Part shown: positions 31,007 through 60,725 of the stretch, piece by piece
Numbering within the stretch: position 1 is the stretch's first letter
Layout: every line of letters begins with the position of its first letter
Origin: Alcanivorax sp. DSM 26293
Lineage (GTDB): Bacteria > Pseudomonadota > Gammaproteobacteria > Pseudomonadales > Alcanivoracaceae
Reading direction: 5' to 3'
Length of the DNA: 64,000 nt
Assembly (NCBI RefSeq): GCF_900107995.1
Contig: NZ_FNUM01000001.1
Coordinates: 383,695 to 447,694 of the forward strand
Notes under the pieces: generated by a model
Database searches by the model: none
What the model saw: the letters and a program-made list of their open reading frames with translations, nothing else
What the model was told of the DNA's origin: nothing
Program-made: the position numbers and the translations under genes

Positions 31007-31189
31007 CAGCCCCCGCTCTTGTCTTTCAGCACACAGGACGCCGTGACAACGCCGGTCCCGGTGTTCCCGGTGGAGGCCACTGGGCAAAGCAGGTTGGAGA
31101 GCGGGTTGGAGAGAAACAGCAGCCGGGGACCGCAGTTTCAAGGGGATGAGCGAAAGCTGGGGCGCAGACTGTCTGTGACTGCAGAAACG

Positions 31190-31219
31190 AAAAAGGGCCC
31201 GCCGTAGGCGAGCCCTTTA
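31190..31219 (-). terminator. Terminator of the former tRNA-Lys transcript
   Basis: AAAGGGC and GCCCTTT pair around a GC-rich inner stem, with Ts after the stem on the minus strand. It follows the tRNA-Lys fragment on its coding strand and so is the terminator left behind when the prophage separated the tRNA gene from its 5' half. Confidence 0.8.
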
Positions 31220-31223
31220 AATA

Positions 31224-31272
31224 TGGTGGGTCGTGCTGGATTCGAACCAGCGACCAATTGGTTAAAAGCCAA
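31224..31272 (-). other. Prophage attachment site: 3' 49 bases of tRNA-Lys(TTT)
   Basis: On the minus strand the sequence TTGGCTTTTAACCAATTGG followed by a standard T arm (TCGCTGGTTCGAATCCAGC) and ACGACCCACCA is the 3' part of a tRNA-Lys with anticodon TTT. There is no D arm or 5' acceptor strand: upstream sequence is AT-rich phage DNA. It is therefore a split tRNA end, as left by a phage that integrates in tRNA-Lys and rebuilds the tRNA at the far end. It is not a functional tRNA. Confidence 0.85.
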
Positions 31273-31450
31273 GCAGTTAAAGCGATGCAACCTTTTGTAT
31301 TTTATGGATTTGCCCCTATAAAATTTCCCCACTTTGCGCGATGCAGTCGGTTTTTTAAGTAACTGTTTCCCTTGAGTTTATTTAACTCGAAACCGCTTTA
31401 TTGGGGAAAAAATTTCAACCTGTTCCAGGGGCAAGCATCTCCGCCTTATA

Positions 31451-31466
31451 CTGTCCATCCATACAG
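31451..31466. promoter_or_regulatory. LexA (SOS) box overlapping a -10 element
   Basis: CTGTCCATCCATACAG fits the SOS box CTGT-N8-ACAG exactly. It overlaps a TATACT box at 31,447-31,452 and lies 15 bases before the start codon of the UmuD-like gene. Confidence 0.8.
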
Positions 31467-31480
31467 TATAAAGGTGCATC

Positions 31481-31984
31481 ATGACCACCCTCCTTATCGG
31501 CCCTTTCCGGCCCACCAGAACCACCTTGCTGCCCTGCTTCACAGAACGCGTATCCGCCGGTTTCCCCTCCCCTGCCAGGGGGTACATGGAAGACCCGCTG
31601 GACCTGAACGACCTGTGCGTTCGCCGCCCAGCGGCCACCTTTCTGATGCAGGCCACCGGCAACGCCATGACAGGGGCCGGGATATTTGATGGGGATGTGC
31701 TGGTGGTGGACAGAAGCTTGAAGGCCCGCCACGGGAGCCTGGTGATTGCGGAGCTGGCAGGTGAGCACATTGTTCGCCGGCTTCAGCTGAAACCGCGCCA
31801 AGGGCTGCTACCTGAGAATGAGGAATACCAACCGATCTGGCTGGATGACGAAGTGCCGGCACACGTCTATGGTGTGGTGACATGGACCGTCAGGAACCAC
31901 CGGGGAGGCAAACGCGATGTGCGGGAGGATGGACATCGACGAGGCGCCGATAAAGGAATTTGTGCGGGATACCCTCAATATTGA
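31481..31984 (+). CDS. UmuD-like protein with substituted Ser and Lys catalytic positions
   Basis: A 167-residue homologue of UmuD. It aligns along the whole E. coli protein (for example SAGFPSPARGYME with CGFPSPAADYVE), with a constant offset of two residues. At the catalytic Ser position (60 in E. coli) it has Ala62 (in TGNAMTGAG), and at the catalytic Lys position (97) it has Arg99 (in EHIVRRLQL). The cleavage-site region is kept as Ala26-Gly27. So it should not cleave itself. The C-terminus is about 25 residues longer than in UmuD and overlaps the SRAP gene. The ATG at 31,481 has AAAGGTG 5 bases upstream and lies behind a LexA box. No umuC is nearby. Confidence 0.88.
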   Translation: MTTLLIGPFRPTRTTLLPCFTERVSAGFPSPARGYMEDPLDLNDLCVRRPAATFLMQATGNAMTGAGIFDGDVLVVDRSLKARHGSLVIAELAGEHIVRRLQLKPRQGLLPENEEYQPIWLDDEVPAHVYGVVTWTVRNHRGGKRDVREDGHRRGADKGICAGYPQY

Positions 31985-32480
31985 GCTGGACCTGCACACC
32001 AATCACGATTTACGGCCGACCCAGACCGTGGCCACCATCGGGAACGACCGGCAGCAGGTCAATCCCACTTGGGGTATCCAGCCCGCCTGGGCAAAGAAAC
32101 TACTGATCAACGCCCAGAGTGAAACTGTCGCTGAGAAGAAGACTTTCCGGAACGCCTTTGCCGAATCACGCTGCATGGTGCCCTGCTCTGGCTGGTACGA
32201 ATGGCGTGATGAAGGCGGGCCCAGAAAGCAGAAGTATCACTTCGCAGCAGCTGACGGGAATCCGCTGCTGATGGGTGGGATTCTGTTTCCCGGAGAAGAA
32301 GGCCCGAAGCTGATCACGCTGACGATCGACCCCAACAAGGAATGCGCCGAATACCACCACCGCATGCCCCAGTTCGTGCCGCACCAGCACCTGGAGCAAT
32401 GGCTTACCGGATCCGTGGAAGAAGCCTTGCAGCTGGTGACGCCGCTGCCTGACGGCAGCGTTCAGATTCAGCGGGCATGA
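31917..32480 (+). CDS. SOS-response-associated peptidase (SRAP / YedK / HMCES-like)
   Basis: A 187-residue SRAP protein that forms a covalent DNA-protein crosslink with abasic sites in single-stranded DNA, shielding them. Cys2 is directly after the initiator Met (catalytic nucleophile), with Asn65 (LINAQSET), Glu95 (GWYEW) and His147 (YHHRMPQF) at the other active-site positions of the family. The gene overlaps the UmuD-like gene by 68 bases in another frame, so both are expressed from the LexA-controlled promoter. Prophages carry SRAP genes occasionally as cargo. Confidence 0.93.
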   Translation: MCGRMDIDEAPIKEFVRDTLNIELDLHTNHDLRPTQTVATIGNDRQQVNPTWGIQPAWAKKLLINAQSETVAEKKTFRNAFAESRCMVPCSGWYEWRDEGGPRKQKYHFAAADGNPLLMGGILFPGEEGPKLITLTIDPNKECAEYHHRMPQFVPHQHLEQWLTGSVEEALQLVTPLPDGSVQIQRA

Positions 32481-60074: not shown

Positions 60075-60725
60075 ATGGAATATGGCGACAGACTACGCAA
60101 TGCCCGGACAGCCAAAGGCTACAGCCAGCAACAACTGGCTGAGGTCTCTGGTGTGCCACAAGGCACCATCTCAAAAATCGAACGCGGAGATCAGCAAACC
60201 TCCCGCTACGATCTCGCCTTGTCAGAAGCACTCGAAGTGTCTGCAAAATGGCTACAAACCGGCCACGGCCCGAAATCTCCACACTCAAACTTGGCAGAAT
60301 CTCCCGCTCGCTACTCCAATCAAATAGCAACCGCACCTGTCATCAGCCACGTGCAAGCTGGGCAATGGGCAGAAGCCATCGACCTCTACTCGCCTGGCGA
60401 CGGTATAGAGCATCGATCAGTACCCGCTGGCACCTCAGAAAACGCGATCTGGCTGAAAGTAGTGGGCGACAGCATGACCAACCCCAACGGCAACCCCTCC
60501 ATTCCTGAAGGGTCCATTGTGCTGGTTGATCCAGATCTTCCACCCGATAACGGCAAGCTCGTCGTCGCCAAGCTGGTTGACAGCAACGAAGTGACCCTGA
60601 AAAAACTGGTGATCGACGCAGGAAGAAAGTGGCTCAAGCCCCTGAATCCGGCCTACCCCATGATAGAAATCAACGGCAACTGCAACATCGTAGGGGTGGT
60701 AAAAAGGATGGAGTACGACTTCTAA
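60075..60725 (+). CDS. CI-type phage repressor (S24/LexA fold)
   Basis: A 216-residue repressor. The N-terminal helix-turn-helix is at about residues 14-45 (GYSQQQLAEVSGVPQGTISK). The C-terminal S24 autocleavage domain has the cleavage site Ala95-Gly96 (ISHVQAGQW), Ser133 (VVGDSMTNP) and Lys176 (EVTLKKL). So the repressor should cleave itself with RecA on DNA damage, which would induce the prophage. It maintains lysogeny through the TAC-N4-GTA sites. Confidence 0.95.
   Translation: MEYGDRLRNARTAKGYSQQQLAEVSGVPQGTISKIERGDQQTSRYDLALSEALEVSAKWLQTGHGPKSPHSNLAESPARYSNQIATAPVISHVQAGQWAEAIDLYSPGDGIEHRSVPAGTSENAIWLKVVGDSMTNPNGNPSIPEGSIVLVDPDLPPDNGKLVVAKLVDSNEVTLKKLVIDAGRKWLKPLNPAYPMIEINGNCNIVGVVKRMEYDF

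Follow-up and report, generated by a model that had tools for sequence, protein, structure and literature searches.

The UmuD-like gene and its prophage setting

The window (the whole stretch of Alcanivorax DNA that was analysed, 64 kb) includes one end of a prophage that spans about 38.4 kb, and some 210 bp inside this end lie a gene for a UmuD-like protein that lacks both residues of the self-cleavage dyad (hereinafter dead UmuD) and a gene for an SRAP protein. The features discussed below are as follows.

31184..31272, no strand assigned: attachment-site repeat, 89 bp (3' piece of a tRNA-Lys gene and flank), 96.6% identical to L260:8274-8362
31451..31466, plus strand: LexA box CTGTCCATCCATACAG, a match to CTGT-N8-ACAG
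31481..31984, plus strand: gene of the UmuD-like protein, 167 aa, with Ala62 and Arg99 replacing the Ser/Lys dyad (PF00717, 79.3 bits)
31529..31618, plus strand: segment encoding the arm and cleavage site (residues 17-46), resembling chromosomal Alcanivorax UmuD (76% in the arm versus 45% in the core)
31917..32480, plus strand: accessory SRAP gene (YedK/HMCES type), 187 aa (PF02586, 130.5 bits, cut-off 27.1)
60075..60725, plus strand: prophage CI-type repressor, C-terminal S24-like part (phrog_4, 182.9 bits)

A phmmer search aligns residues 10-138 of the UmuD-like protein with residues 8-136 of Escherichia coli UmuD without gaps, so that the constant offset of two and the replacements Ser60 to Ala62 and Lys97 to Arg99, which an earlier note made from the sequence had reported, are both upheld; the UmuD chain in this alignment, 8gmt_B, itself carries Ala at position 97. 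The gapless alignment also rules out a dyad located elsewhere in the protein. The NCBIfam model for the UmuD subfamily, NF007621, is matched with 134.2 bits (cut-off 110), whereas the NCBIfam HumD model yields 83.4 bits, below its cut-off of 120. Neither Pfam nor NCBIfam identifies a DNA-binding domain in this protein, and the match to the LexA model is below the cut-off and spans the S24 part only. The N-terminal arm is retained in full: the ATG lies 26 codons ahead of Gly27, unlike in the armless, UmuD'-like HumD, and the cleavage site is Ala26-Gly27, within the sequence SAGFPSPA that is present in all four distinct dead proteins (E. coli UmuD is cut between Cys24 and Gly25; Cys24 is given as the cleavage site in PMC5342242, in excerpt).

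A umuC partner gene is not found near the dead umuD in a search of the host assembly for Y-family polymerases, in agreement with the earlier note; the matches are confined to contigs C7 (position 581822), C10 (position 578875) and C18 (below the cut-off). The match on C10, the only umuC, adjoins the only other UmuD gene of the assembly, which encodes an intact Ser/Lys protein, so the host UmuD that the note had assumed as a partner is available. The LexA box, which the note had also recognised, ends 14 nt ahead of the umuD ATG. On its own, the box is weak evidence because the 64-kb window contains two CTGT-N8-ACAG sequences against 0.91 expected by chance; it recurs, however, ahead of the dead umuD in relatives (exact in loci L003 and L026, with one mismatch in L004), and the host umuDC is likewise preceded by a LexA box.

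The copy of the attachment-site repeat at L260:8274-8362 overlaps an intact tRNA-Lys(ttt) gene (L260:8314-8389) and lies beside an ORF that by eye resembles an integrase (L260:7204-8229); L003 starts with the same tRNA-Lys piece as the prophage end in the window. The ten prophage proteins that were scanned include a terminase, a head protease, a tape measure protein, a tail protein, a primase and the CI-type repressor. The ORF at 62880-63434 matches a PHROG annotated as cysteine dioxygenase, and the ORF L260:5188-6723 of this prophage, which by eye resembles a DNA cytosine methyltransferase, has a start nearly identical to that of L266:17424-18881, an ORF on a contig of another Alcanivorax genome (G015), about 36 kb from the dead UmuD gene of that genome.

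Distribution of the Ala/Arg pair

A search of IMG/VR identifies four close loci, two of which (L001, from a metagenome, and L002, possibly from the host itself or from a closely related strain) encode a protein identical to that in the window, whereas the other two encode proteins with 81% (L003) and 84% (L004) identity. A search of the genus (17 genomes, the host's own included) adds L026 from genome G015, which is 44% identical to the window protein and has the same Ala/Arg pair; this gene, too, has a LexA box ahead of it, and the ORFs that it faces by eye resemble phage tail genes. The pair is thus present in four distinct proteins: that of the window lineage, those of the phage contigs L003 and L004, and L026. 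Because the identical protein recurs in L001 and L002 and the pair is kept in the three diverged proteins, we reject a sequencing artefact or a frame error as very unlikely; of the observations that the note had named as fatal to its reading, neither a dyad elsewhere in the protein nor a pair confined to one erroneous sequence was made. A search with the alignment of the clade adds one further IMG/VR protein, L037, which is of the Ser/Lys type; among genome contigs, the same search yields 10 loci, 8 of which are named Alcanivorax, the others coming from Aliidiomarina and from a Bacteroidales bin. A partial match in another genome of the genus (L294, G003:C2:397800-399400) was rejected as a member of this clade: it is what remains of a UmuD gene after a frame shift, with Ser and Lys still readable.

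Among the 31 loci read from the genus and the host, Ala/Arg is found in two (the window gene and L026) and Ser/Lys in 29, eight of which have E-values such as LexA proteins give; in the 29 genomes of the rest of the family, no match is better than E = 2e-14, again the LexA range. A non-redundant set of UmuD-like proteins contains Ser/Lys in 117 of 121 cases, including a viral set picked by its Ser pattern, and Ala/Arg in the remaining four; this set excludes proteins with E above 1e-17, with stops, shorter than 110 aa or about 88% alike, and two proteins that keep Ser and have Arg (L118) or Cys (L150) at the Lys position fall outside it by E-value. Of 257 tblastn matches, 237 are Ser/Lys (LexA proteins included), six are other or incomplete, and 14 are Ala/Arg, all of them repeat fetches of the four dead proteins. 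Matches occur in 128 of the 390 genomes of the order and 49 of the 369 genomes of the class, the dyad having been read among the matches listed (at most 30 loci per search).

IMG/VR was also searched with residue patterns that require GF-P-x-P-A at a fixed spacing. The pattern with Ala at the place of Ser finds five stretches, four of which belong to the dead clade and one (L082) is unrelated, which speaks against chance occurrence of Ala at this position. The Ser-type pattern, which admits Thr, Cys and Arg codons as well, finds at least 120 stretches, and all 120 of those listed match UmuD with Ser. Separate patterns, which cover codons other than ACN, TGN and AGR, each identify one further UmuD-like phage protein with an arm, in which Ser is replaced and Lys kept: Arg replaces Ser in L284:3559-3987 (pattern with C or G first), and Asn in L292:13074-13634, on the minus strand (pattern with A or T in the first two positions).

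The SRAP gene

The SRAP gene overlaps the 3' end of the dead umuD by 68 nt, in line with the overlap described in the earlier note. Its translation contains Cys2, and the positions of Asn, Glu and His align with YedK; these are the active residues. No further SRAP match is detected in the host assembly. The note had treated SRAP as a constant partner of the dead UmuD and proposed to look for the Ala/Arg pair next to SRAP elsewhere. The latter arrangement does recur in L003, where the two genes also overlap; no SRAP match is found beside the dead umuD of L004 or L026 on the fetched stretches, which vary in length, and the constancy of the partnership is not supported. Moreover, an SRAP gene is present on the same stretch as a Ser-type UmuD in 34 of the 120 listed viral loci (within 600 bp in 19), so that pairing of SRAP with UmuD is common, although the order umuD then SRAP on the same strand is seen in none of these 34. 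Since two of the four distinct dead loci show no SRAP, this gene is an accessory to the dead UmuD.

These observations bear on the possibility that the two genes form a repair operon in which the dead UmuD would serve as a scaffold to recruit SRAP to DNA that is stalled or bears abasic sites. The gene overlap seen in both the window lineage and L003, purifying selection on SRAP (dN/dS 0.10 between the window and L003) and the lack of another SRAP match in the host are compatible with such an operon; nevertheless, given the loci L004 and L026, we consider it improbable.

Phylogeny, selection and the arm of the dead UmuD

In a tree of 122 rows, the four dead proteins form one clade with support 100/97, and with the two catalytic columns removed (a tree of 71 rows) the support is 98/92. 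The evidence for a single dead clade is good but not final because the branch of L026 is long, the alignments cover few positions and the bootstraps are unsettled. Among the three closer members, dN/dS over codons 1-145 is 0.14, 0.12 and 0.17, with dS between 0.40 and 0.84. Over the initial 36 codons the signal is weaker, with dN/dS of 0.29-0.43, which reflects low dS there. In this part of the gene (31481-31588), dS between relatives is 0.18-0.22 versus 0.43-1.30 in the core; the 5' end of the phage umuD may carry a further signal or may have recombined among phages. Between positions 14 and 140, only 62, 89 and 99 are uniform in the dead proteins and uniformly different in the nine chromosomal Alcanivorax UmuD, the dead family being small, with four distinct sequences.

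The dead UmuD of Alcanivorax prophages is thus real, conserved and under selection. That it is a former UmuD in the process of losing its function is highly improbable: both catalytic residues are lost, and a frame-shifted UmuD remnant does exist in the genus, but the frame is open in all four dead genes, the low dN/dS holds in three of them, the LexA box is kept and the proteins make up one clade.

The arm and the core of the dead proteins compare differently with the host. Between the three closer dead proteins and the nine chromosomal Alcanivorax UmuD, identity is 76% in the arm (residues 17-46) and 45% in the core (residues 47-138), whereas among the nine chromosomal proteins themselves the values are 80% and 72%. 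With a line fitted to 2211 live-protein pairs as the baseline, the excess similarity of the window arm has z = 3.56 versus the host's own UmuD and -0.14 versus E. coli UmuD; versus L022, L024 and L025, which represent a second type of UmuD in the genus, the excess is 0.27-0.90 sd. When the arm excess is averaged over all live proteins, 1 to 5 of the 67 live proteins reach the value of the dead ones. The contrast may be due in part to a faster-evolving core: mean core identity to 58 other UmuD is 0.36-0.48 for the dead proteins, compared with 0.48-0.56 for chromosomal UmuD. That the arm was recently acquired from the host by gene conversion finds no support, since residues shared with L006 are encoded by different codons about equally often in the arm (13 of 24) and in the core (19 of 39). 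Judging by these comparisons, the arm of the dead UmuD probably has a job with host proteins.

Predicted function of the dead UmuD

Our leading hypothesis, to which we give somewhat less than an even chance, is that the prophage encodes an SOS-induced, full-length dead UmuD that acts towards the host UmuD as a poison or decoy subunit. Under this hypothesis, DNA damage would lower LexA, and the phage umuD would be expressed alongside the host umuDC; the phage protein would then pair with the host UmuD, displace it from the RecA filament and from UmuC, or both. In a mixed dimer, the host arm would meet a dead active site and remain uncut, so that a lysogen would make less UmuD'2 and would therefore have less active pol V. 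The host-like arm might also preserve effects of the full-length state, namely retention of UmuC at the membrane and targeting of UmuD' to ClpXP. Expression, dimer formation, which of the two arms undergoes cleavage and how mutagenesis changes overall are the parts of this scheme that we infer. In E. coli, the S60A replacement in UmuD causes a large drop in UV mutagenesis (PMC3901139, in the portion available), and with UmuD(K97A) UmuC stays at the membrane while UmuD' in the heterodimer is degraded by ClpXP (PMC4552617, likewise in part). A stricter version, that the protein is a dedicated inhibitor which, through its host-matched arm and under the same LexA signal, jams the switch from UmuD to UmuD' in trans and lowers mutagenesis in the lysogen, is conceivable but rather doubtful. 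An anti-mutagenic role of the dead UmuD is plausible; the choice of an accurate, non-mutagenic SOS route by the prophage, as the earlier note put it, is hypothetical.

An active partner can cleave the arms of UmuD S60A in trans (PMC5342242, as excerpted), and the phage protein may accordingly become UmuD'-like and aid pol V. In this alternative, the host UmuD would cut the phage arm at Ala26-Gly27, and the product would join UmuD'2C and support or tune pol V, its supply depending on the host UmuD. Conservation of AGFPSPA in all four dead proteins, the resemblance of the phage arm to the host arm and the cleavage of S60A in trans are all compatible with a substrate of this kind. The armless HumD, however, reaches a UmuD'-like form uncut, which would make keeping the arm while losing the active site a roundabout solution, and umuC is not adjacent. 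If cutting occurs between chains, the host arm of a mixed dimer would stay uncut and the phage arm would be cut, which favours interference; the same facts about inter-chain cutting equally allow a helper that is cut in trans, and this is why we keep the poison-subunit hypothesis short of even confidence while regarding the trans-cleaved substrate as unlikely.

Alternatively, the dead S24 domain might act as a decoy on the RecA filament that slows the cleavage of LexA and of the phage CI and so exerts negative feedback on the SOS response and on prophage induction. The chain 8gmt_B, with its Ala at 97, is listed as part of a UmuD-RecA filament complex (PMC11442139, partial text); the translation of the prophage CI contains GDSM and Lys, a dyad identified by eye, and because these are retained CI should be SOS-cleavable; and Hex of phage 434 indicates that phages can block repressor autocleavage (PMC3564112, in part). 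Such a decoy would have no obvious need of the host-like arm and cleavage site, and we regard it as quite unlikely.

The S60A and K97A single mutants are routinely used to tell apart the uncut and the cut state of UmuD. With the dead UmuD, a natural and selected protein that has both residues replaced and the arm kept, one can ask directly whether selection favours the uncut state, or interference with cutting, for its own sake.

Relationship to known systems

The dead UmuD resembles E. coli UmuD and its S60A and K97A mutants in the S24 profile, the arm with a cleavable site, the LexA box and the positions of the replacements. Unlike these laboratory mutants, it is natural, conserved and phage-borne, has both residues replaced, with Arg in place of Lys, and lacks an adjacent umuC. 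Another S24 phage protein without the canonical active site is the CI of phage 186 (PMC12984324, from an excerpt), but that protein is a repressor, whereas the window protein matches no DNA-binding domain. SRAP genes are found in SOS gene neighbourhoods beside umuD and umuC as well as in lysogenic phages and prophages (PMC3765255, available in part); compared with these neighbourhoods, the umuD in the window is dead and lies upstream of SRAP, overlapping it.

Orphan UmuD-like genes of phages are already known in the HumD type (P1 HumD, N15 gp26, phiKO2 Gp23, HK639, Pocitis76 and pAEv1818). These six proteins start at MGFP or a few residues before it and are thus armless, in contrast to the window protein. 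UmuD-like genes adjoin the integrase in the phages L271, L275, L276, L278 and L281, a recurrent site for this gene, and those of HK639 and pAEv1818 are annotated between a tail gene and the integrase. Sixteen of 77 matched phage records were read, a mixed sample in which some proteins have an arm and one gene adjoins umuC; Ser is replaced in eight, kept in seven (P1 HumD included) and cannot be aligned in one; P1 HumD and D6 retain both Ser and Lys in the alignment. Altered dyads also occur in the armless HumD type. The armless protein of Aeromonas phage pAEv1818 (L281) clearly has Arg in place of Lys and contains GQAM close to where Ser would be, but Ala or Gln corresponds to Ser60 depending on the placement of a one-residue gap; pAEv1818 has possibly reached the same Ala/Arg pair independently.

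What is new is the combination of an arm with a dead active site; a literature search, whose coverage mostly excluded subscription journals, found no published account of such a protein. According to the title of the paper on it, P1 HumD reportedly facilitates SOS mutagenesis. If the dead UmuD lowers pol V activity, the prophage would turn the mutation rate of its host down, opposite to that title, and if the protein is indeed a dedicated inhibitor, it would be a phage-made anti-mutator and the opposite of HumD. The contrast between armed, dead proteins and armless ones provides a handle on what the arm of UmuD does.
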